A stretch of DNA of 64,000 bases from Hydrogenothermaceae bacterium. GTDB taxonomy: Bacteria > Aquificota > Aquificia > Aquificales > Hydrogenothermaceae. Both the position numbers and the translations under genes were made by a program. Location: contig JAOABH010000004.1 in assembly GCA_026418455.1 (NCBI GenBank), positions 248,001 to 312,000 of the forward strand. Direction: 5' to 3'. Positions 52,620 through 64,000 of the stretch are shown here, piece by piece. Each line of letters opens with the position of its first letter. Position 1 is the stretch's first letter. The notes beneath the pieces are model-generated. The model worked only from the letters and a program-made list of their open reading frames with translations. It searched no databases and was not told the origin of the DNA.

Positions 52620-52676
52620 TTGACAACTGAATAAATATTCATTAGTATATTATTACTAATTTAAAATTAGTAATAC
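52620..52676 (+). promoter_or_regulatory. nickel/hydrogenase operon promoter with TetR-like and NikR-like operators
   Basis: TTGACA (52620-52625), 17-bp spacer, TAGTAT (52643-52648). Within the spacer lies TGAATAAATATTCATTAG (52628-52645), one of three related boxes in this locus. Over the start site lies TTATTAC-N13-GTAATAC (52650-52676), with 11-base perfect arms, matching the geometry of delta-proteobacterial NikR sites (GTGTTAC-N13/14-GTAACAC). GGAGG then precedes the first ATG at 52687. Confidence 0.65.
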
Positions 52677-52686
52677 GGAGGACGAA

Positions 52687-53364
52687 ATGAAAAAATTAGT
52701 TCTTGCCTTACTTCTTTTGTTTAACATTAGTTTTTCTCACGAATTATGGATTGAGGAGAGTGAAAACGGCTATACGCTTCTATACGGTCATCTTAATCCT
52801 CAAGTTGGTGAAGATAAGTTTGTAAAATACTCTCCGGAGAATGTCCTAGATGTTAAGTGTTTTGACCATCAGAGAAAAGAGAAAAATGTAAAAGTAGAAA
52901 AAGTGTATCCTTTTAAAATAGTCGGAAAGTGTGATCTGTTATATATTCTTTTTTCAACAGGATACTGGACAAAAACACCTTATGGATTTAAAAATCTTCC
53001 AAAGAATAAAGTTAACATGCCAATTGAAAGTTGGCAATCTTTTGAATCTATAAAAAAATTAAGCAGTTTTATTGATACACCATTAACCGATAACCTTGAA
53101 ATAAGTCCACTTCAAAATCCTTTTAATATTCATGTGGGAGAAAAATTAACTGTTTTGGTAACTTATGGTAAAAAACCTTTAAAAGATGTGATTGTTGCTT
53201 ATGACGGGAAACCTATAGGAACTACAGATGATGAAGGAAAGATAAATATCAGGATAAAGCATCCTTACCAGCAGTATATATCTACTTCTTATAAAATTAA
53301 GTCGGATGGAGTAAAAGCTGACAGTATTATCTATACATCAATCCTTAACTTTGAGGTCAAGTAG
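52687..53364 (+). CDS. periplasmic DUF4198-type nickel transport accessory protein
   Basis: 225 residues. Signal peptide of about 17 residues ending at FSHELWIEE, placing a His near the mature N-terminus, then beta-rich DUF4198-like sequence (YGHLNP, VTYGKKPLKDVIVAYDGKPIGTTDDEGK) with an Ig/carboxypeptidase-regulatory-like fold at the end. Such proteins accompany NikM-type ECF nickel transporters (NikK role). First gene of the nickel/hydrogenase run, behind a NikR-like operator. Confidence 0.72.
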   Translation: MKKLVLALLLLFNISFSHELWIEESENGYTLLYGHLNPQVGEDKFVKYSPENVLDVKCFDHQRKEKNVKVEKVYPFKIVGKCDLLYILFSTGYWTKTPYGFKNLPKNKVNMPIESWQSFESIKKLSSFIDTPLTDNLEISPLQNPFNIHVGEKLTVLVTYGKKPLKDVIVAYDGKPIGTTDDEGKINIRIKHPYQQYISTSYKIKSDGVKADSIIYTSILNFEVK

Positions 53365-53366
53365 TT

Positions 53367-53786
53367 ATGATTTTGAAGATTATTATCTCTCTACTTTTAT
53401 CTCTCAGCTTTTCTTTTGCTCATGACTTACAGTATAAATTAGAAAATACAGGGCAAACCGTAGTTATATGGTTCTTCTTTCCAGATGGTTCAAAGTTTTC
53501 TTATGAAAATTTTGAGATATATAGAGAAGGTGAAAAAGTTCCTTTCCAGGTAGGTAGGACAGATGCTCTTGGAAGAGTGATTTTTATTCCAGATAGGGCA
53601 GGTAAATGGCTGGTTAAAGTTTACTCAGAAGATGGACACGGCAAAAATATAGTAATAGAAGTAAATAAGGGTGGATATACTGAAAAAGGTAGTTCTGTAT
53701 ATGAGAAATTTAGTAAAGTTATAACCGGTGTAGGAATTATCTTTGGAATCTTCGGTCTTATATCAATTTTTAAGAAAAGGGGGTAA
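53367..53786 (+). CDS. small periplasmic/membrane nickel-transport accessory protein (NikL-like)
   Basis: 139 residues. Signal peptide ending at SFAHDLQYKL (again a His at the mature N-terminus), a beta-sandwich core with GRTDALGRVIFIPDRAGKWLVKV, and a C-terminal membrane helix (VITGVGIIFGIFGLISIF) with a positive tail. Position between the DUF4198 protein and NikM, and this topology, fit the NikL-type component that substitutes for CbiN; this is inference from context. Confidence 0.6.
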   Translation: MILKIIISLLLSLSFSFAHDLQYKLENTGQTVVIWFFFPDGSKFSYENFEIYREGEKVPFQVGRTDALGRVIFIPDRAGKWLVKVYSEDGHGKNIVIEVNKGGYTEKGSSVYEKFSKVITGVGIIFGIFGLISIFKKRG

Positions 53787-53792
53787 GATTTC

Positions 53793-54841
53793 ATGAAGAA
53801 GTTTTCTCTTTTATCTGTTTTATTAATTCTTCCGTCTTTTGCATTTGCTCACCATGGAGTTGCTTCTTTAGGAGCAGCAGGATTAGAAGGTCCTGGGGCA
53901 TCTTTGGAAACATCAAGCAGTGCCACACTTCCGGAAGGTAGCTGGCTTTTCTATGGAAAATTGGATTATGTTGAATGGAAAAAGTATAGCTGGGATAAAT
54001 TCCCAGATCAAAAAGATAATTATCAATTCTGGATGTATGGGATAGGATACGGATTGAAACCATACTTATCTCTCTATGCTTTTGTGCCTTACTATACAAA
54101 AAAAGAGATAAAATCAAAGGTGGCAAATGATCCAAACTCAGGTTTTTATAACTTTACTTCATCCGGTTTTGCAGATATATCCTTTATGGCTGTTTTAGGG
54201 TATAAGTACGATAGAGGATTTAAGTTTATTCCTAAAAAAAAAGCCTTGATGATATGATGGATTGGCATTTTACAACATACTTCGGTTTCTCGTTACCTAC
54301 GGGAGATTATAATGGCTCTACAGTTGATAAAGTTAGAGGTGATTTCGAAGCAGATATGGCTACAGGTTTTGGTAAACCTTATCTTTTGATAGGTCAAACT
54401 GCAACAAAACAGTTAGTCAGTTTCCCAAGATTAACCTTACTTTTTGATACAAATTACACAAAATTTTTCGAAAAAAGTTATAACTACAAAAATCCAGATG
54501 GAACGAACAAAAAGTATAAATATGGAGATGAGTTTAGATTTAATACGGCAATTGCCTATAGAACTTTAACAGTTCCGGAGCAGAAATTAAGATTTGATAC
54601 TCTCTTGGAAGCAAATTTCCAGTATAACCAAAGAGATAAGGAAGATGGTGTTAAATCTGAAGGGTCAGGTGGAAAGATTTTATATGGAATAATAGGGGGA
54701 AGACTGTACTATAAAAGCACATCCTTGGGAGTTGGTATAAAAGTTCCCGTTTGGAAAAAGTTAAATGAGGAATCTACCCAACAAGGGGGAGAAGGTAAGG
54801 AAAGATACAGATTTATAATAACATTCTCTGCTCTTTTTTAG
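53793..54841 (+). pseudogene. outer-membrane beta-barrel protein of nickel operon, split by frameshift at A9
   Basis: Two ORFs (53793-54257 and 54254-54841) together encode about 350 residues: a signal peptide ending FAFA|HHGVAS, then amphipathic strands rich in aromatic residues (WLFYGKLDYVEWKKYSW, YGLKPYLSLYAFVPYY, TTYFGFSLPTGDYNG) ending in FIITFSALF, a typical barrel C-terminus. The frames meet at A9 (54234-54242); ten or seven A restore one frame. It may be an outer-membrane nickel or small-solute channel. Either it is inactivated, or slippage on A9 yields some full-length protein. Confidence 0.75.
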
Positions 54842-54851
54842 GGGGGTTATG

Positions 54852-55499
54852 ATGCATATACCTGATGGATTTATAGCTCCGCAAGTTTATATACCGATGT
54901 ATATAGTTGATATAGGTTTGATTGCTTACGGTTTTAATAAGTTAAAAGATAACTTAGGACGAGAGCGTTTTGCAACTCTCTCAGTTCTATCGGCTTTATC
55001 CTTTGTGTTAATGTCTATAACATTTCCTCTACCAGGAGGAACATCTGTCCATATAACAGGTATAACTATATTATCAGTTTTATTGGGATACTGGGTTAGC
55101 TTTGTCTGTGTTTCAATAGTACTTTTTATACAAGCCGCTATCTTTGGTGAAGGGGGAATAACATCCTTCCCTGTAAACAGTATAGGTATAGCATTTATAG
55201 GTAGTATAGCTTCATACTACACTTTTAACATTTTAAAAAGATTTCTAAATCAATATATGGCTTTGTTTATATCTGGCTGGTTATCTCTTAATCTATCTGC
55301 ACTGTTTATAGGTTTTACATTAGGCCTTCAACCTATAATTGCTCATGATACAGCTGGAAAGCCTCTCTTTTTTCCATTTGGATTTAGTATAGCAGTTCCG
55401 GCTGTTGTAATCCCTCATCTCTTTGCAGGTATAATAGAAGGTATATATACAGTTTTTATCTATAAAGTATTAAAATCTAAGGGACTTACAGATGTATGA
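54852..55499 (+). CDS. nikM: ECF nickel transporter substrate-binding membrane component NikM (CbiM family)
   Basis: About 215 residues with six or seven membrane helices. MHIPDGFI at the N-terminus is the CbiM/NikM hallmark: Met1 and His2 bind the metal. The frame also has an ATG at 54849, but only 54852 places His at position 2, and GGGGGG has suitable spacing to it. Nickel rather than cobalt is inferred from nikR and the hydrogenase genes downstream and the absence of cbiN. It overlaps nikQ by 8 bp. Confidence 0.9.
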   Translation: MHIPDGFIAPQVYIPMYIVDIGLIAYGFNKLKDNLGRERFATLSVLSALSFVLMSITFPLPGGTSVHITGITILSVLLGYWVSFVCVSIVLFIQAAIFGEGGITSFPVNSIGIAFIGSIASYYTFNILKRFLNQYMALFISGWLSLNLSALFIGFTLGLQPIIAHDTAGKPLFFPFGFSIAVPAVVIPHLFAGIIEGIYTVFIYKVLKSKGLTDV

Positions 55500-56031
55500 C
55501 AGATATCTTTTAACTGTGTATATATTAACTGTTTTTCTTATAACTTCTATTCATAACATTGGATTTTATCTTATAGTTTTTCTATTTTTTTCAATTTTTT
55601 CTTTGAAAGATTTATATAGGTTACTGAAAAAATCTATCTTTTCCATCTTACTGTTTAACAGTGTTGTATCCATTTCTTATATTTTTATTAATGGTTTTGA
55701 CAAAGACTATCTTTTACTCATAAATTTAAGAGTTATTGTCCTCACATATATAACATTTTTTATTACCTCAAAAATAAATTTATTTAAAGCACTGTCTTTT
55801 TCTAAAACTTTAACTACATTACTTGTGTTATCATACAGTCAGATATTAACTTATAAGAAACTTTTTGAAGAGTTTAATATGGCTTTAACTACAAGAGCAG
55901 TAAAAGAGTTAAAATTTAGTGATTACTTAAATTTCTACGGTAAAGTTTTTGAGTTTTTCTTTGATAAATCCACTAAAAATGTAAAAGATATATCTGATGG
56001 AATGAGATCAAGGGGTTTTTTTAATGATTAA
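55492..56031 (+). CDS. nikQ: ECF transporter transmembrane component NikQ (CbiQ family)
   Basis: 179 residues, shorter than usual CbiQ (about 240). Four or five membrane helices, then the cytoplasmic coupling region with ALTTRAVKEL and the conserved DGMRSRGF, the two Arg-containing helices that contact the ATPases. Couples ATP hydrolysis to NikM. Overlaps both neighbours by 8 bp. Confidence 0.82.
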   Translation: MYDRYLLTVYILTVFLITSIHNIGFYLIVFLFFSIFSLKDLYRLLKKSIFSILLFNSVVSISYIFINGFDKDYLLLINLRVIVLTYITFFITSKINLFKALSFSKTLTTLLVLSYSQILTYKKLFEEFNMALTTRAVKELKFSDYLNFYGKVFEFFFDKSTKNVKDISDGMRSRGFFND

Positions 56032-56791
56032 CCTTAAAGAGATTACTTATAAAAATGAAAAGCAGACAGTTTTAGACAGTATATCTTTACATATAGAGGA
56101 TGGGGAAAAAATAATATTAATAGGAGTAAATGGTACCGGAAAAACCACGTTATTGAAAATATTAAATGGTCTTATGTTTCCATCATCTGGAGAATATATC
56201 TATAATGGGCAAAAAGTAGATAAAAACTTTTTAAAGAAGAATGGAAAAATATTCAGAAAGGAAGTTGTAATGTTATTTCAGAACCCAGACGTTATGTTAT
56301 TTAATCCAACAGTCTATGATGAGATATCTTTTGGACTTAAACAGTTTAACTTTAGTGATGTAGAAGAGAGGGTAAAATATTGGGCAGAGATGTTTGGTAT
56401 TACAAAATATTTAAATACATCACCTTTCGAGTTAAGTGGGGGAGAAAAACAAAAGGTAGCTTTAGCATCTATACTTGCGATAGAGCCAAAAGTCTTACTT
56501 CTTGATGAACCTACCTCAAATTTAGACCCAAGAGCAACAGGATGGCTTATAGATTTTTTACAAAACTTAAATCTAACGATGGTAATAACTACACATAATC
56601 TAAGTATAGCTCCGGAACTTGGTAATAGAGTGGTAGTTCTTGGAGAAAATCATAGAATTCTTTACGATGGAGATATAGATATCTTTTTGAAAGATGAAAA
56701 ACTACTTATAGAGGCAAATTTGGTTCATGTACATAAACACAGGCATAATGGCTTGATCCATTCACATTTTCATATTCACAACTGGGAATAG
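56024..56791 (+). CDS. nikO: ECF transporter ATPase NikO (CbiO family)
   Basis: 255 residues. Walker A GVNGTGKTT near residue 40, Q-loop FQNPDVMLFNPTV, signature LSGGEKQKVALA, Walker B VLLLDEPTSNLDP, and switch His in VITTHNL. The final 25 residues are His-rich (HVHKHRHNGLIHSHFHIH), a likely nickel-buffering tail. Energises nickel uptake with NikM and NikQ. Confidence 0.92.
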   Translation: MINLKEITYKNEKQTVLDSISLHIEDGEKIILIGVNGTGKTTLLKILNGLMFPSSGEYIYNGQKVDKNFLKKNGKIFRKEVVMLFQNPDVMLFNPTVYDEISFGLKQFNFSDVEERVKYWAEMFGITKYLNTSPFELSGGEKQKVALASILAIEPKVLLLDEPTSNLDPRATGWLIDFLQNLNLTMVITTHNLSIAPELGNRVVVLGENHRILYDGDIDIFLKDEKLLIEANLVHVHKHRHNGLIHSHFHIHNWE

Positions 56792-56800
56792 GAGGTAAAG

Positions 56801-57214
56801 ATGGAGAAAGATTTAGTGAGAGTGTCTATAACACTTCCTACTGATCTTTTAGAATATATTGACAATCAGGTGGTAAATAGAAACTACTCATCAAGGTCTG
56901 AATTTATAAGAGATATACTGAGAGAGCAGATAGTAGATGATATGTGGCAATCTGAAGATGAAGTTATAGGGGTTTTAACTATTATCTATGATCACCACCG
57001 AAGAGAGTTATCTCAAAAGATGGTAGATATCCAGCACAATGACTATATAAACATAATGTGTTCTACACATATACATCTTGATCATTATAACTGTTTAGAA
57101 ACAATTATACTCAAAGGTAAAGCAGATAAAATTATAGAGATATCAAATCAGATCGCCGGATTAAACGGAGTAAAATTTGCAAAATTAACCAAAACAGCTA
57201 ATATTAAAGTTTAA
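56801..57214 (+). CDS. nikR: nickel-responsive regulator NikR
   Basis: 137 residues. N-terminal ribbon-helix-helix (VRVSITLPTDLLEYID, SRSEFIRDILREQ) and C-terminal ACT-like domain with nickel ligands in YDHHRREL, STHIHLDHYNCLE (His/His/Cys pattern). Represses nickel uptake when nickel is abundant. A matching operator lies at the head of this operon (52650-52676). Confidence 0.94.
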   Translation: MEKDLVRVSITLPTDLLEYIDNQVVNRNYSSRSEFIRDILREQIVDDMWQSEDEVIGVLTIIYDHHRRELSQKMVDIQHNDYINIMCSTHIHLDHYNCLETIILKGKADKIIEISNQIAGLNGVKFAKLTKTANIKV

Positions 57215-57224
57215 GGAGGCTTAC

Positions 57225-57980
57225 ATGTGTAAAGATTGTGGATGTTCAATAAGCCATCATCACCATGAAGACAGTAATCATCACCATCATCATCACGACC
57301 ATCTTAATCCTGCAATGGAAGATAGGAAAACTGTAGAGGTTCTAACGAAGATTTTAGATGCCAATGACAGACAGGCACAAAGTAACAGGGAACATTTTGA
57401 GGAACATAACATTCTTGCAATAAATCTTATGAGTTCTCCGGGAGCAGGCAAAACGACACTTTTAGAAAAAACCATAGAATTAGTTGATGGAAAGTTAAAA
57501 ATAGGAGTGATAGAAGGAGATCTCGAAACAAATAAAGATGCAGAAAGGATTAAAGAGAAAGGAGTTCCTGCTTATCAGATAACTACTGGACAAGCCTGTC
57601 ACCTTGATGCATTTATGGTCCATGAGGGAATACACCATTTACCTTTAGATAATCTTGATGTAATCTTTATAGAAAATGTTGGTAATCTTGTATGTCCAGC
57701 TTCTTATGATGTAGGGTCTCATCTTAACGTAGTTCTTTTATCTGTTCCAGAAGGTGATGACAAGGTTGCAAAGTATCCCGTTATGTTTTCAGCAGCGGAT
57801 ATAGTTTTAATCACAAAAATCGATTTACTACCTTATTTTGATTTCAGTATAGAGAATGTTAAAAAAGATTTAAAGAGAATAAATCCTAAGGCAGATATAA
57901 TACTCTTATCAACAAAAAGTGGCGAAGGTATGGATAAATGGCTAAAATATATTTTATTTAAAAAGGAAATGATGGGGTGA
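57225..57980 (+). CDS. hypB: hydrogenase nickel incorporation GTPase HypB
   Basis: 251 residues. N-terminal high-affinity metal motif MCKDCGC followed by a His-rich stretch (two runs of H, residues 11-24), then the GTPase domain with P-loop SSPGAGKTTLLE, GDLETNKDAERI, and CPASYDVGSH nickel/zinc region. Delivers nickel to the hydrogenase large subunit with HypA. It lies 10 bp after nikR. Confidence 0.95.
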   Translation: MCKDCGCSISHHHHEDSNHHHHHHDHLNPAMEDRKTVEVLTKILDANDRQAQSNREHFEEHNILAINLMSSPGAGKTTLLEKTIELVDGKLKIGVIEGDLETNKDAERIKEKGVPAYQITTGQACHLDAFMVHEGIHHLPLDNLDVIFIENVGNLVCPASYDVGSHLNVVLLSVPEGDDKVAKYPVMFSAADIVLITKIDLLPYFDFSIENVKKDLKRINPKADIILLSTKSGEGMDKWLKYILFKKEMMG

Positions 57981-57984
57981 TAGT

Positions 57985-58590
57985 TTGGTTAGAAAGTTAT
58001 TGAAAGAGAAAAAGAGAGAGGAGATAGTAAAAGTAGCCTCTAGACTTTTTTCTGAGAGAGGTTTTTATAACACAACTATTCCAGATATAGCAGAAGCAGT
58101 TGGAATGAGTGTAGGAAACTTCTATAACTACTTTGAGTCTAAAGAGGATCTTGCAAAGTATATAATGCAATACTCTTCTTCAATACTTGGAGAAGAGATA
58201 AGAAAGATATCTCAGATGGATGTATCCACAAAAGAAAAGGTGTTTTTAATAGTAAGAAGGTTTATTGAGATAGCACAGGAAAGACCGGAGTTAATAGATT
58301 ATTTTTTGAGAATATTTCTCTCAAACAGAGAGGTTTTTTCTGAAGGTTGTGAAGGATTTCTATGTGTAGGTGAAGTAGTGACAGAGCTTATGTTGTTCTT
58401 AGAAGAAGGTGCAAGAAAAGGTGATTTTAGACAGCAGGATTTCTTCCCGGCTTTTGTTACAATTATGGGACCTTTGGGAGGACTTGTTTTTTTAAAAGGT
58501 GAAGGTATCCTACCTAAAAATCCGATAGAGTATGCAAATGAGATAGGAGAAAACATTTGGAGAGCCTTAAAGTCAGACGAAAAAGTTTGA
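57985..58590 (+). CDS. TetR-family transcriptional regulator
   Basis: 201 residues. N-terminal TetR helix-turn-helix (REEIVKVASRLFSERGFYNTTIPDIAEAVGMSVGNFYNYFESKEDLAKYI) and an all-helical ligand-binding domain with two Cys (EGCEGFLCVGE) that could sense redox or metal. Start is TTG, 4 bases after the hypB stop. Its end overlaps the hydrogenase small subunit by 34 bp, so it is co-transcribed with hydrogenase. Candidate binder of the TGAATGA-type boxes at 52628, 60944 and 63740. Confidence 0.85.
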   Translation: MVRKLLKEKKREEIVKVASRLFSERGFYNTTIPDIAEAVGMSVGNFYNYFESKEDLAKYIMQYSSSILGEEIRKISQMDVSTKEKVFLIVRRFIEIAQERPELIDYFLRIFLSNREVFSEGCEGFLCVGEVVTELMLFLEEGARKGDFRQQDFFPAFVTIMGPLGGLVFLKGEGILPKNPIEYANEIGENIWRALKSDEKV

Positions 58591-59495
58591 TATGGATATC
58601 CGGATTAACATGTAATGGTAACAGCCACTCTTTTTTATCTTCTAGTTCTTTATCTTTTGATGCTTTTTTAAATAGTGTAAACATTCTTTTTCATCCAGCT
58701 TTAACTTATGACAGAGAGTTTAAGGATATTTATAAAGATATCTTAGAAGGAAAATTAAAATTAGATTTTTTAATAGTAGAAGGTGCAGTAAGTAAGAAGA
58801 AAACTAAAGTTTACTTTCAGGGATTTGATATCTACGAAATTTTAGAAAATTTAAAAAATATTGCAGAATACATTATAGCAGTTGGTAACTGTGCCTCTTT
58901 TGGAAATTTTCCAGCTCTATATAGTGAGGATGTTGTAGGTTTAAATTTTAGATTTAACCAAAGAAACGGATTTTTTGAGGGAGATTTTACTACAAAATCT
59001 GGTATGCCTATTATAAATATTTCCGGTTGTCCTGCCCATCCTGAATGGATAATTAAAACTGTCCTTTCTCTATCTTACGGTTATGATCTTAAATTGGGCA
59101 GTCTTCAACGGCCGAAAGATTTTTATATGTATCTAACCCATGACGGTTGCACGAGAAATCAATATTTTGAATGGAAGGTTGAAGCGGAAGAGTTTGGAAC
59201 TAAGGAAGGCTGTCTTTTCTACTATTTAGGATGTAGAGGACCGTTGACCCACTCTAGCTGTAATAAGATACTTTGGAACGATAAATCTTCAAAAACAAGA
59301 GCAGGTATGCCATGTATAGGATGTACTGAGTTTGATTTTCCTTTGAGAGGTAAATACTTTGAGACTAAACTTAATATAGGTATTCCGGAAGAAGTCCCTT
59401 TAGGTGTGTCAAAGAGAGCTTATATAATGCTATCCGGTGTTGCAAAAACATTTACAAACCATAGGTTGAAGGGAAAACTTGAAGAAGCAGATTAG
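58557..59495 (+). CDS. hupS: [NiFe] hydrogenase small subunit, cytosolic group 2-like
   Basis: 312 residues, no Tat signal and no membrane anchor, so cytoplasmic. Cluster ligands: proximal C in SGLTCNGNSHSF, where the usual second Cys of CxxC is Asn, with VGNCASFG and ISGCPAHP; distal HDGCTRNQ; then EGCLFYYLGCRG, SSCNKILW, MPCIGC. The Asn substitution is known in group 2 (cyanobacterial HupS) enzymes. The start is TTG behind AGGAG; an alternative TTG at 58587 exists. It overlaps the large subunit by 17 bp. Confidence 0.87.
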   Translation: MESLKVRRKSLIWISGLTCNGNSHSFLSSSSLSFDAFLNSVNILFHPALTYDREFKDIYKDILEGKLKLDFLIVEGAVSKKKTKVYFQGFDIYEILENLKNIAEYIIAVGNCASFGNFPALYSEDVVGLNFRFNQRNGFFEGDFTTKSGMPIINISGCPAHPEWIIKTVLSLSYGYDLKLGSLQRPKDFYMYLTHDGCTRNQYFEWKVEAEEFGTKEGCLFYYLGCRGPLTHSSCNKILWNDKSSKTRAGMPCIGCTEFDFPLRGKYFETKLNIGIPEEVPLGVSKRAYIMLSGVAKTFTNHRLKGKLEEAD

Positions 59496-60816
59496 TAATC
59501 TATCGCTAAATAGAGTAGAGGGAGAAGTAGAGCTAAAACTTCAAAAGGATAAGAACGGAGTCATTGAAGATGCTTTCATAACAGCTTACAACTTCCGGGG
59601 ATTTGAGGATATACTAAAAGGAAAAGATCTGTTAGATACTTTGGTGATTACACCAAGAATATGTGGGATATGTGGACATTCTCATCTTACTGCAAATGTA
59701 AATGCAATAGAGAATTTATACAGAGAAAATGGCTTTAATATAGAAGTAACTCAAAAAGCAAAGATAATAAGGCAGTTAACACAGTGTAGTGAAATAATTC
59801 AAAATCATATAAAGTGGTTCTACCTCTTTGTTATGCCGGATTTTTTAAAATTAGATCCCTCTGAGAAATTTGTGGAATATAGACCGTTTACAGGTAAACA
59901 TTGGAAGAATGCTTTAAAGATCTCCTCTGATATAATAAAAATTGTAGCTATATTTGGAGGACAGTGGCCTCATACATCTTATAGTCTCCCAGGAGGAATA
60001 ACCTCCGATCCATTGAAAACAGATTTGGTAGAAGCTATGTCTATAGTTGATTCTACATTAAAATTTGTAGAAAGTAATATCATTGGAATAGATGCTGAAA
60101 GTTACCTATCTATGGCAGACTATCAGGAGTTTATGAATAAAACCTCTGGAGGTTCATTAAAAGATTTTATTGAGTTGTCTTTTAAAAACGGTATGGAGAA
60201 GATTGGAAAATCATACGGTCACTTTATAACTGTATCAAATGTTTATCCATGTATACAGGAAGCGGTGATTAAAAAAAAGAGATGTAAATTTAATATAAAG
60301 AAAGTGAAAGAAGTAAAAGAAAGTAGTGGTTATAGTATTGTTCAACCTGTTAGATACGACGGGCTTCCAATGGAAACAGGACCACTTGCAAGAAGGTTAA
60401 CATCTAACACTGATCTATTTGTAAATCTAAATTCTGTATTTTCAGACAGTTATTTGGTAAGAGTTTGGGCAAGGGTTGACGAGATAGTAAGAATTTTGGT
60501 TAATATGAAAGACTGGATATCAAAGATAAAGTTATCGGAAAAATCTTACATAAAACCTAAGGATTATAAATTACTTTCGGGAGTAGCTTTAGGTCTTACA
60601 GAAGCAGCAAGAGGTTCTCTTATCCACAGAATAGAGGTTTCTAAAGGAAAGATAGTAGATTACAATATAATAACACCTACTGTTTGGAATTTAGGTCCAA
60701 GGTGTAAAAATTACAGAGGAGTAGCCGAAAAAGCTATCGTAGGGATTGATAATGATTTAAAAGCACAGATGGTCCTAAGAAGTTTTGATGTCTGTTCAGT
60801 TTGTTTAGTTCATTAA
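59479..60816 (+). CDS. hupL: [NiFe] hydrogenase large subunit without C-terminal extension
   Basis: 445 residues. N-terminal nickel ligands in PRICGICGHSH (L1) and C-terminal ligands in FDVCSVCLVH (L2). The ORF stops directly after the L2 histidine, so the peptide normally removed by a maturation protease is absent, and no protease gene is seen nearby. This occurs in regulatory and some soluble hydrogenases. Likely oxidises H2 with the small subunit for low-potential electron supply. Start TTG at 59479 inside the small-subunit end. Confidence 0.88.
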   Translation: MKKQISNLSLNRVEGEVELKLQKDKNGVIEDAFITAYNFRGFEDILKGKDLLDTLVITPRICGICGHSHLTANVNAIENLYRENGFNIEVTQKAKIIRQLTQCSEIIQNHIKWFYLFVMPDFLKLDPSEKFVEYRPFTGKHWKNALKISSDIIKIVAIFGGQWPHTSYSLPGGITSDPLKTDLVEAMSIVDSTLKFVESNIIGIDAESYLSMADYQEFMNKTSGGSLKDFIELSFKNGMEKIGKSYGHFITVSNVYPCIQEAVIKKKRCKFNIKKVKEVKESSGYSIVQPVRYDGLPMETGPLARRLTSNTDLFVNLNSVFSDSYLVRVWARVDEIVRILVNMKDWISKIKLSEKSYIKPKDYKLLSGVALGLTEAARGSLIHRIEVSKGKIVDYNIITPTVWNLGPRCKNYRGVAEKAIVGIDNDLKAQMVLRSFDVCSVCLVH

Positions 60817-60912
60817 ATAAGAAGAAAAGAATATTTTTGGCTAAGATGTTATTTGGAATAAAGCAAAAAGTTTAAATTAGAAAATCAGGGTTATTAAAGG
60901 ATTTATAATGTG

Positions 60913-60961
60913 TTGATTTTTTTTGAATTTTAATCTATCATATTGAATGATTATTCATTAA
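60913..60961 (+). promoter_or_regulatory. promoter of hypCDEA with TetR-like box
   Basis: TTGATT (60913-60918), 17-bp spacer, TATCAT (60936-60941), then TGAATGATTATTCATTAA (60944-60961) over the start site. The box is 15/18 identical to the one in the first promoter. The remaining gap (60817-60912) shows nothing else. Confidence 0.62.
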
Positions 60962-60973
60962 TGGAGATAAAAG

Positions 60974-61240
60974 ATGTGTTTGTCAATACCGTCCAGAGTA
61001 GAAGAGATTATAGAAGATCAATTTGCCATAGTTGATACGATGGGGGTAAAAAGAAAGGTTTCATTACATCTTATGCCGGATCCTGTAAATATAGGTGACT
61101 ATGTCCTGATACATGTTGGATATGCTATAGCAAAGTTAAGTGAAGAAGATGCTCTTGAAAGTTTAAAGATATACGAAGAGATCATAAAAGAGCTAGAGAA
61201 AGAGGAGAAAGCGGAAATTTTGGGGGATTCATATGAGTAA
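60974..61240 (+). CDS. hypC: hydrogenase maturation chaperone HypC
   Basis: 88 residues. Starts MCLSIPSRV (the Cys after Met binds iron), then VDTMGVKRKVSLHLMP and GDYVLIHVGYAIAKL. Carries the Fe(CN)2CO precursor between HypD and the large subunit. It overlaps hypD by 8 bp. Confidence 0.94.
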   Translation: MCLSIPSRVEEIIEDQFAIVDTMGVKRKVSLHLMPDPVNIGDYVLIHVGYAIAKLSEEDALESLKIYEEIIKELEKEEKAEILGDSYE

Positions 61241-62348
61241 AGTTGATTTTTTAAAGGATTTCAGAGATTCTAAGAGAATTAAAGCTATATCAGAGATTAT
61301 ATATAAAGAAGCAGACAGATCTATAAACATTATGGAGATATGTGGAGGACACACACATACGATTATGAAATATGGACTTTCTCAAATACTTCCACCTTTT
61401 ATAAACTTCATACACGGTCCTGGTTGTCCGGTGTGTGTTATGCCAAAGGAGAGAATAGATCACGCAATCTCCCTTGTTCAAGATGAAAAAAATATTCTTG
61501 TAGTGTTGGGGGATATGATAAGAGTTCCCGGTTCAGAAAGCTCTCTTGCAAAAGAAAGGGCAAAAGGCAAGAATGTTAAGGTTATTTACTCACCTTTTGA
61601 TGCTATAAAGATAGCAAAGGAAAATCCACAGAAAAATGTTATATACTTTGCTATAGGCTTTGAAACAACTACTCCTATGACTGCTTCACTTGTAAACTTT
61701 ACAATTAAAGATCAGATTAAAAATCTCTTTTTTCATGTAAACCATGTTCTTGTACCACCTCCTATAAGAGCTATAATGGATAGTAAAGAAGCAAAGATAG
61801 ACGCTTTTATAGGTCCTTCTCATGTATCTGTTATAACCGGAGCAAAAATATACGATGATATTGTAAAAAGTTATGGAACGCCTGTTGTAGTATCAGGCTT
61901 CGAGCCAGTTGATGTTATGGAGAGCATTTTAAGAATTGTTAGACAGTTTAAAGAGAGAAGAAGAGAGGTAGAGATACAGTATACGAGGGCTGTAAACTTT
62001 GAGGGAAATGTAAAAGCTCAGCAGTTGATAGATAAATATTTTACTACAAGAGAAAATTTCAGATGGAGAGGTATAGGAGATATACCATACTCAGGACTTA
62101 AATTAAAAGAGGAGTTTTCATATCTTGATGCTGAGATTGTATTCAGAGACATACTACCTTCAAAGCAGGTAGATGATCATAAACTTTGTATATGCGGGGA
62201 TATACTTAAAGGTATAGCTAAACCTTATGATTGTAAAGTTTTTGCAAAAGCTTGCACTCCGGAAAATCCACTTGGTGCTTGTATGGTTTCATCTGAAGGT
62301 GCTTGTGCTGCTTATTATAAATATGGAAAGTTAGAGTTAACTTTATGA
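61233..62348 (+). CDS. hypD: hydrogenase maturation scaffold HypD
   Basis: 371 residues. MEICGGHTHTIMKYG, GPGCPVCVMP, IGFETTTPMTA, then the iron-sulfur ligands in CICGDILKG and CTPENPLGACMVSSEGACAAYY. Site of assembly of the Fe(CN)2CO group with HypC. A normal ribosome binding site (GGGGG) lies in hypC. Confidence 0.95.
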   Translation: MSKVDFLKDFRDSKRIKAISEIIYKEADRSINIMEICGGHTHTIMKYGLSQILPPFINFIHGPGCPVCVMPKERIDHAISLVQDEKNILVVLGDMIRVPGSESSLAKERAKGKNVKVIYSPFDAIKIAKENPQKNVIYFAIGFETTTPMTASLVNFTIKDQIKNLFFHVNHVLVPPPIRAIMDSKEAKIDAFIGPSHVSVITGAKIYDDIVKSYGTPVVVSGFEPVDVMESILRIVRQFKERRREVEIQYTRAVNFEGNVKAQQLIDKYFTTRENFRWRGIGDIPYSGLKLKEEFSYLDAEIVFRDILPSKQVDDHKLCICGDILKGIAKPYDCKVFAKACTPENPLGACMVSSEGACAAYYKYGKLELTL

Positions 62349-62358
62349 GGTGTGACTT

Positions 62359-63357
62359 ATGAGACAGATACTTTTATCTCACGGTGGTGGAGGAAAAGAG
62401 ACCCAAAAACTTATAAAAGATCTGTTTTTTAAGTATTTTTCAAATCCGATACTTGAAAAAATGGAAGATTCCGCTGTTTTAGAGATAAATTCAAAGATTG
62501 CTTTTACAACTGATTCTTTTACAGTATATCCTATATTTTTTAAAGGTGGAGATATAGGAAAACTTGCTATTGCCGGAACAGTTAATGATCTTACGGTTAT
62601 GGGAGCAAAACCTCTTTATTTAAGTTGCTCTTTCATAATAGAGGAAGGATTTCCAATAGAATATCTGGAGAAAATATTAACTTCAATGTCAAAGGAGATG
62701 GAAAAATCTCAGGTAAAGATAGTTACAGGGGACACAAAGATTGTGCCAAAAGGATTTGCAGACGGTATATTTATAAACACAACTGGAATAGGAAAAGTAA
62801 TTTATGAGGGTATATCTGCACAAAATTTAGAAGAAGGTGATTGTATAGTTATATCTGGAACAGTAGGAGACCACGGTGCATGTATAATGGCACAGAGAGA
62901 GGGAATGGAGATGGACAGTAATATTGAATCTGACTGTGAATCTCTTTGGGATATGGTAGAAAAGGTTATAAATTCTGGAGTTAAAATTAAAGCGATGAGA
63001 GATCCAACAAGGGGAGGTCTTTCTGCTGTTTTGAATGAGTGGGCTTTATCTTCAAATGTAGAGATAGAAGTTGAAGAAGATAAGATACCGGTAAAGCCGG
63101 AAGTTCAAGGCCTATGTGAGCTTCTCGGATTTGAGCCTTATACACTTGCAAATGAGGGAAAGATAGTTTTCTGTGTTGATAAGAAAGATGTAGAAAAACT
63201 CCTCACTGTATTGAAGAATCACCAAAAAGGTAAAGATGCTACCTTTATAGGTAAAGTTATATCTAAAGGTAAGCCGGTTGTTATTTTAAAATCTCCATAC
63301 GGAACAAGGAGAGTTATGGAATTTCCGTCAGGGGAACTTCTTCCAAGGATATGTTAA
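62359..63357 (+). CDS. hypE: hydrogenase maturation protein HypE (carbamoyl dehydratase)
   Basis: 332 residues, PurM/selenophosphate-synthetase fold: LSHGGGGKETQ, FTTDSFTVYPIFF, GTVNDLTVMGAKP, MRDPTRGGL, and a C-terminal PRIC whose Cys is carbamoylated and dehydrated to the cyanide ligand. It requires HypF, which is not in the window. Separated by one base from hypA. Confidence 0.95.
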   Translation: MRQILLSHGGGGKETQKLIKDLFFKYFSNPILEKMEDSAVLEINSKIAFTTDSFTVYPIFFKGGDIGKLAIAGTVNDLTVMGAKPLYLSCSFIIEEGFPIEYLEKILTSMSKEMEKSQVKIVTGDTKIVPKGFADGIFINTTGIGKVIYEGISAQNLEEGDCIVISGTVGDHGACIMAQREGMEMDSNIESDCESLWDMVEKVINSGVKIKAMRDPTRGGLSAVLNEWALSSNVEIEVEEDKIPVKPEVQGLCELLGFEPYTLANEGKIVFCVDKKDVEKLLTVLKNHQKGKDATFIGKVISKGKPVVILKSPYGTRRVMEFPSGELLPRIC

Positions 63358-63358
63358 T

Positions 63359-63703
63359 ATGCATGAATTCTCAATCGTTCAAAGTTTACTTGAGCTAATA
63401 GAAAAAAATGTTAAGGAAAACAACGGAAAAGCTGCTTCAAAAGTTGTTGTTGAGATAGGTAAAATATCCGGAGTAGAACCACATCTCTTAGAAATGGCAT
63501 TTAATACATTCAAAGAAAACACCGTAGCTCACAATGCAGAATTTATCATAGAGATACAAGAAGTTGTATGTTTATGTAGAAATTGCAACAGTGAGTTTAG
63601 TGTAGAAAATTATAATTTTATATGTCCTTACTGCCGGAGTTTAGATTTTCATATAATCAAAGGTAGAGATATGTTTTTAAAGAGTTTGGAGGTAGAACTT
63701 TAA
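63359..63703 (+). CDS. hypA: hydrogenase nickel incorporation protein HypA
   Basis: 114 residues. Starts MHEFSIVQSLLELI (Met1-His2-Glu3 nickel site) and has a C-terminal zinc site CLCRNC...CPYC. Delivers nickel with HypB to the large subunit. Last hyp gene in the window. Confidence 0.94.
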   Translation: MHEFSIVQSLLELIEKNVKENNGKAASKVVVEIGKISGVEPHLLEMAFNTFKENTVAHNAEFIIEIQEVVCLCRNCNSEFSVENYNFICPYCRSLDFHIIKGRDMFLKSLEVEL

Positions 63704-63709
63704 AACTGC

Positions 63710-63757
63710 TTGACAAAAATTTTTTTTAAATTAATATTATGAATGAACAATAATTCA
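63710..63757 (+). promoter_or_regulatory. promoter with third TetR-like box
   Basis: TTGACA (63710-63715) followed by TAATAT (63732-63737, 16-bp spacer) or TATTAT (63735-63740). TGAATGAACAATAATTCA (63740-63757) has the same 7-4-7 layout as the other boxes (arms TGAATGA/TAATTCA). It drives the gene at 63875. Confidence 0.55.
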
Positions 63758-63800
63758 TAGAGAGATTAAAATGGTGATAAAATGGTGTATCTGCATACGG

Positions 63801-63874: not shown

Positions 63875-64000
63875 CATGGATTTCTTTAGAAGAGATTATT
63901 TAAGGGAGATGTTCACAAAACCAACAAATCTGATAGATACAAATAAAGGTGAAGAGTATTATAGGAATCTATACAGAAAAGCAAAAGAAAGACTCGATTG
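63875..64000 (+). CDS. unknown protein, 3' end outside window
   Basis: Open from the ATG at 63875 to the edge: 42 residues beginning MDFFRRDYLREMFTKPTNLI, charged and without Cys or His motifs so far. GGAGG lies 10 bases before the ATG. Placed behind a TetR-box promoter next to hypA, it probably belongs to the hydrogenase regulon. The family cannot be recognised from this fragment. Confidence 0.65.

Follow-up and report, generated by a model that had tools for sequence, protein, structure and literature searches.

A TetR-family regulator and its putative 18-bp operator at the nickel and hydrogenase promoters of a Hydrogenothermaceae bacterium

In a Hydrogenothermaceae genome (GCA_026418455.1; 1.535 Mb, 99.99% complete), we analyzed a stretch of 64,000 nt (contig JAOABH010000004.1, positions 248,001 to 312,000; hereafter the window) that carries a locus for nickel uptake and [NiFe] hydrogenases. 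Three boxes in this locus head precisely three transcription units: the long run from the nik genes to hydS2L2, the hypCDEA genes and the hydS1 operon. Based on sequence comparison, we consider it very likely (around 85%) that the boxes are copies of one 18-bp operator bound by the TetR-family regulator encoded at 57985 in the same locus, which would repress the nickel/hydrogenase regulon.

At sites 1 and 2 the sequence is a perfect 5-4-5 inverted repeat, TGAAT-N4-ATTCA (TGAATaaatATTCA, 52628-52641, and TGAATgattATTCA, 60944-60957), and the core of site 3 (TGAACaataATTCA, 63744-63757), with TGAAC-AATA-ATTCA, has one mismatch. An 18-bp palindromic consensus, AATGAATRA-TYATTCATT, was built from 84 upstream-region sites, which represent 70 distinct 30-mers and were taken, with few exceptions, from other genomes. 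Operator 1 (ACTGAATAAATATTCATT, 52626..52643) matches it at 16 of 18 positions, operator 2 (ATTGAATGATTATTCATT, 60942..60959) at 17 and operator 3 (AATGAACAATAATTCATA, 63742..63759) at 15. An earlier note on this DNA, made from its letters only, had quoted the sequences at 52628, 60944 and 63740 correctly, the first two being 15/18 identical, and its idea of a box shared by three promoters stands. However, the layout is 5-4-5 within an 18-bp palindrome and not 7-4-7 as stated there, and the third site had been read four nucleotides out of register, since the stretch starting at 63740 (63740-63757) has only 1 of 18 consensus matches.

Each box is flanked or overlapped by promoter-like hexamers. 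Operator 1 fills the spacer of TTGACA-17-TAGTAT, while operator 2 lies directly behind TATCAT and operator 3 directly behind TTGACA-16/17-TAATAT, both at the expected transcription start. The positions of all three suit repression. Among the upstream-region sites of loci with the regulator (TetR+), the commonest distance from the end of the box to the start codon is 10-16 nt.

The three boxes are the top three consensus matches in the 64 kb, and Markov shuffles gave on average 0 sites with at least 17 matches, 0.05 with at least 16 and 1.0 with at least 15. A loose core search allowing two mismatches showed no excess (8 found versus 10.6 expected from shuffles), and the strict core and the 18-bp consensus are the only informative patterns. 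The whole genome has three copies of the perfect core, of which two lie in the window, and all three are at promoters; the promoter-unrelated matches that the earlier note had named as a danger to its proposal are thus not seen among perfect sites. The copy outside the locus (G000:C6:33995) is found just after a TTGACA, 93 nt before a gene for a small putatively secreted protein (L003 1501-2097; 167 aa), without a Pfam match or a homologue in the loci examined, and this gene is a possible extra member of the regulon. A core of the TGAAC variant at C2:14002 is intragenic. Raw counts of the core do not separate from those of a reversed-pattern control (3 versus 4 in the host genome, and alike in relatives), so what counts as evidence is where the boxes lie and what they co-occur with, not how many there are; with one mismatch allowed, the genome has 41 sites, among which chance matches must dominate. 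When all inverted repeats with 5-bp arms and gaps of 0-10 (about 11,000) were compared in 208 TetR+ upstream regions, TGAAT-N4-ATTCA ranked first, being present in 66 regions versus 11 for the next unrelated repeat. A y/r-degenerate form of the box was found in 81 of the 208 regions, with 0.4 in shuffles, and in none of 29 regions from loci lacking the regulator (TetR-).

About 260 genomes from two phyla, Aquificota and Campylobacterota, were compared, and box counts per genome cover the hyd, hyp or nik promoters in the loci read. As the check on orthologous loci proposed in the earlier note anticipated, boxes reappear in TetR-bearing members of both phyla at promoters of the same kinds, preceding nik, hypB, hypC, hydSL and hydABC. 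Counterparts of operator 1 are found before DUF4198/nik (L037, L049, L112), those of operator 2 before hypC (L036, L037, L067, L094, L095, L103) and those of operator 3 before hydS1 (L036, L037, L040, L044, L047, L049 and many Campylobacterota). One relative (G003) has a perfect box 18 nt upstream of hypF (L093 16484), extending the regulon to this gene.

The presence of the box follows that of the tetR gene. Boxes were found in 28 of 37 TetR+ Aquificota genomes, five of the nine without one (G004, G006, G016, G017, G019) being read only on contigs shorter than 15 kb, versus 1 of 13 TetR- genomes with hydrogenase or hyp genes (p=2e-5), and at the hydS promoter in 35 of 48 TetR+ loci of Campylobacterota versus 1 of 20 TetR- genomes (p=2e-7); since the relatives are not phylogenetically independent, these p-values overstate the association and are taken as descriptive. 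This non-independence weighs against regulation by the TetR, as do the following observations. A hydrogenase/hyp operon still has a box in two TetR- genomes (G012, L075 7633; G234, L208 1769), and this may reflect recent losses of tetR, assembly gaps or other TetRs. Conversely, a Campylobacterota clade with the order hypA-tetR-hupSL-hydS (L233-L238) lacks the standard box although it has the TetR. Sulfurospirillum multivorans shows high hydB mRNA levels under almost every condition (PMC5357620), which means that repression there must be relieved or weak. Most members of the L233-L238 clade have a weaker, related AATGA-N4-TYATT element before hydS, which suggests that the operator drifted together with its regulator. 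By contrast, one Aquificaceae genome (G051) speaks in favour of the TetR: its tetR ortholog is split over two frames (C3:246831-247206; L071) and no hypD was found, as expected for a decaying regulator that has lost its regulon.

Close relatives are useful for deciding among candidate regulators. The first operon also encodes a true NikR (56801-57214), and the regulon is nickel-centred, so that the boxes could be bound by NikR under purely nickel-dependent control. We regard this as very improbable. In the genus g7, TetR+ members (L040, L042, L043, L049, L050) have boxes, whereas in two others (L078, L079) nik, nikR, hypB and hydS1 are still present while the tetR-hydS2-hydL2 cassette and the boxes are both lost, and NikR was rejected as the box binder on these grounds. 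Besides, no nikR was found in the stretch read for several loci that carry boxes (L042, L043, L048, L052 and most of those from Campylobacterota), and the 5-4-5 palindrome with its 14-bp core is unlike the long-spaced operators of NikR. A Sulfurospirillum-like genome (L207) offers a similar contrast, as its hydrogenase is 90% identical but it has neither the TetR nor the box.

Alternatively, a TetR paralog or a regulator of a different family could bind the boxes, with tetR as a mere member of the regulon. Boxes retained in the two TetR- genomes would agree with this, and so would the two extra tandem TetR paralogs (40-50% identity) that we found beside a box-like site in Hydrogenimonas (L146 2290-3481) and in another Campylobacterota genome (L230 10912-12082). 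However, among the neighboring genes compared, no other gene tracks the boxes as tetR does, the boxes vanish with tetR even among close relatives, and a TetR dimer fits both the length of the palindrome and the overlap with promoters, which makes another binder improbable. The assignment to the TetR is well supported, since the boxes follow the presence of tetR and TetR-less genomes bearing NikR have none. The proposal of the earlier note that the TetR at 57985 ties nickel uptake, hydrogenase and maturation together is therefore strengthened in two phyla.

The regulator (57985..58590, + strand) is a 201-aa protein with a TTG start. It contains the TetR_N helix-turn-helix (PF00440, 60.7 bits, cut-off 24), and its AlphaFold2 model shows a TetR fold of nine helices (predicted local distance difference test 86.2) whose best Foldseek matches are TetR proteins, the nearest structures being uncharacterised TetRs, PfmR and FadR. 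For the ligand domain, searches in Pfam and NCBIfam gave no identity beyond TetR_N and sub-threshold equivalogs. Orthologs with 53-82% identity are found only in Aquificota and Campylobacterota; beyond these, identity falls sharply to about 30% or the matches are short and partial. Two cysteines, C122 and C127, forming a CX4C motif (GCEGFxCV), are invariant in 72 of 72 orthologs and absent from the corresponding region of all 41 distant TetRs. They are located in a loop between helices 6 and 7 which is modelled with low confidence (residues 113-128), yet it is among the best conserved stretches, and together these features point to a bound cofactor, a redox switch or a surface for a partner.

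We suggest that a dimer of this TetR would bind the palindrome and, covering the promoter (site 1 in the -35/-10 spacer, sites 2 and 3 at the start of transcription), would block RNA polymerase. From site 1 it would repress nickel import together with nikR, hypB, tetR and hydS2L2, so that tetR would be autoregulated; in some relatives (L139, L140, L048, L052) the box stands directly before tetR or hypB. Site 2 would serve to repress hypCDEA, and site 3 the membrane-bound uptake hydrogenase. For the inducer, which could be a metal, an Fe-S cluster or thiol redox, the most probable site of action would be the invariant CX4C loop in the ligand domain, and the best candidate source of an H2 or redox signal would be the group 2d-type hydrogenase from the same operon.

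This hydrogenase is encoded by hydS2 (58557..59495, +; HupS-like small subunit, PF14720/PF01058), which overlaps the 3' end of tetR by 34 bp, and hydL2 (59479..60816, +; HupL-like large subunit, PF00374). It is a two-subunit cytoplasmic enzyme with no signal leader and with the four Ni-Fe ligand cysteines invariant; we infer its group 2d type from the distribution in Aquificota and Campylobacterota and from published group 2d members (PMC10052474, PMC12780486). The cluster cysteines of HydS2 are conserved in 38 of 38 sequences and, with the Ni-Fe ligands also intact, the enzyme should be catalytically competent. In the sequences inspected, the usual proximal-cluster CxxC of HydS2 (residues 17-25) reads TCNGN, only the first cysteine being kept, so that one ligand of the proximal Fe-S cluster may be unusual. 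HydL2 ends at CSVCLVH, and all complete orthologs in both phyla likewise stop within the last Ni-ligand motif, without the C-terminal maturation extension. In normal maturation this extension is cut off from the large subunit, and H2-sensing hydrogenases lack it.

The distribution of HydL2 is linked to that of the TetR. Among 200 Campylobacterota genomes, 191 have a group 1-type large subunit, 40 the TetR and 36 HydL2, and all 36 with HydL2 are among the 40, with hydL2 adjacent to tetR. Three of the four remaining TetR+ genomes (G074, G110, G156) were ruled out as cases of a TetR without HydL2, as a diverged hydS2L2 adjoins tetR in them (L233, L235, L236). In Aquificota, 33 genomes have both, four only the TetR, one only HydL2 and 23 neither. 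The TetR is kept without HydL2 in G057, G041 and G212, thus HydL2 is not an obligatory partner everywhere. The gene directly linked to hydS2L2 as a regulator is tetR; no histidine kinase or response regulator was noticed beside hydS2L2, although no search was aimed at kinases. The invariant CX4C loop of the TetR, and the co-occurrence of the TetR with a group 2d-type hydrogenase, had not been noticed earlier.

A tentative extension, which we find rather doubtful, is that the TetR and the group 2d-type HupSL form a new kind of H2 sensor. HupSL would oxidise H2 and act on the CX4C loop (a disulfide or an Fe-S cluster) by electron transfer or through a redox-dependent contact, and the signal would free the operators of the whole nickel, maturation and hydrogenase regulon, in place of the kinase relay of HupUV/HoxBC. 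The alternative is that HupSL is only a regulated enzyme, for instance providing low-potential electrons for CO2 fixation, while the TetR alone senses a small molecule, nickel or thiol redox. This second view, which opposes the sensor part and not the binding of the boxes by the TetR, is somewhat favoured, as the catalytic ligands are all intact, the three genomes with a TetR and no HydL2 show that HupSL is dispensable, and a reductant role has been proposed for the group 2d-type enzyme (PMC12780486, PMC5357620). However, an enzyme without signalling role does not easily account for the adjacent TetR in 36 of 36 HydL2-bearing Campylobacterota genomes, in a phylum where the group 1 enzyme is nearly general, or for the missing C-terminal extension. 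Published group 2d enzymes can scarcely be detected in cells, and what they do has been called unresolved (PMC10052474, PMC5357620, PMC6242987); the near undetectable hupL mRNA and protein (PMC5357620, PMC6242987) are unlike a main metabolic enzyme.

The genes under the three operators are all on the + strand. Operator 1 heads a co-oriented run (52687-60816) of DUF4198, nikL, an outer-membrane-type protein, nikM, nikQ, nikO, nikR, hypB, tetR, hydS2 and hydL2, in which the nickel uptake genes and the nickel regulator span 52687..57214, and hypB (57225..57980; TIGR00073, 302.8 bits) encodes the nickel insertion GTPase. The gene between nikL and nikM consists of two overlapping open reading frames (ORFs; 53793-54841), with the break near 54250 after a run of nine A, whereas the homologous region in L066 is a single open frame of about 360 aa; a frameshift at the homopolymer, or else a sequencing error, probably accounts for the split. 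After a gap of 157 bp from the end of hydL2, operator 2 heads the maturation genes hypC, hypD, hypE and hypA (60974..63703), recognised as ORFs, hypD by TIGR00075. A further gap separates hypA from hydS1 (63876..64000, continuing past the window end), whose 414-aa product has a twin-arginine-type RRDFFKW motif. Operator 3 thus heads a group 1-type membrane-bound hydrogenase operon, which continues beyond the window (L072) with hydL1, cytochrome b, a maturation protease and hypF, the large subunit having the C-terminal extension (L072 376-4665, with the protease). Just past hypF, on the opposite strand, there is a gene for a GAF/AAA+ activator (NifA/NtrC-like), apparently in two ORFs (L072 9221-10845).

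Hydrogen is a principal energy source for Aquificota and Campylobacterota of vents and hot springs, where the control of hydrogenases is largely unknown. The present result names a regulator and supplies an operator consensus and a regulon, all of them open to tests in cultured strains, and the question of the role of the group 2d hydrogenase becomes testable by one deletion. Should HupSL indeed act as a sensor, this module would represent a new variety of H2 sensing and would explain the unresolved group 2d function in both phyla.

In the literature searched, we found no TetR regulator of hydrogenases with its operator. A TetR repressor with a palindromic operator is of a known kind, but this regulator, its operator and its regulon appear undescribed there. 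The likeness to Bacillus FadR put forward in the earlier note extends to the fold (PDB 3whb and 5gp9, TetR-family fatty-acid regulators; Foldseek template modelling score 0.72-0.77) and to the style of the motif, a short TGAAT-type palindromic operator (putative here) with sites overlapping promoters, and not to membership: the window TetR is 19% identical and scores 37.3 bits with the FadR equivalog model NF053878, far under its cut-off of 200. The half-sites are also shifted, AATGAAT-N4-ATTCATT here versus TGAATGA-N4-TCATTCA in FadR, the CX4C loop is absent from the distant TetRs examined, and instead of a fatty-acid-degradation regulon the host-genome boxes lie at nik, hyp and hyd promoters and before the one putatively secreted protein.

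HupUV/HoxBC sensors (group 2b) resemble HydS2L2 in being cytoplasmic group 2 [NiFe] enzymes of low abundance, with no C-terminal extension and with an adjacent regulator. They signal through a histidine kinase and a response regulator, whereas the regulator linked here is a one-component TetR and sensing by HydS2L2 is putative. The closest described relatives of HydS2L2 are hydrogenase III of Aquifex aeolicus and Hup2 of Hydrogenobacter (group 2d), with a function reported as unresolved and possibly regulatory (PMC10052474), but in the papers found no regulator or operator is tied to them. A TetR-family protein of Clostridium autoethanogenum, CAETHG_0459 (PMC6873888), is also linked to the promoters of hydrogenase and autotrophy genes; it is, however, an activator with an unrelated repeat motif from a different phylum. 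The nearest system is the tetR-hupS-hupL cassette of S. multivorans (PMC5357620), the same cassette beside a membrane-bound hydrogenase, whose TetR-like gene belongs to the same orthologous group as the window TetR (L138, from S. diekertiae, 56% identity). Its authors suggest that this gene upstream of hupSL might repress hupSL, and the operator, the wider regulon, the cysteine loop and the conservation across phyla are what the present comparison adds to their description.

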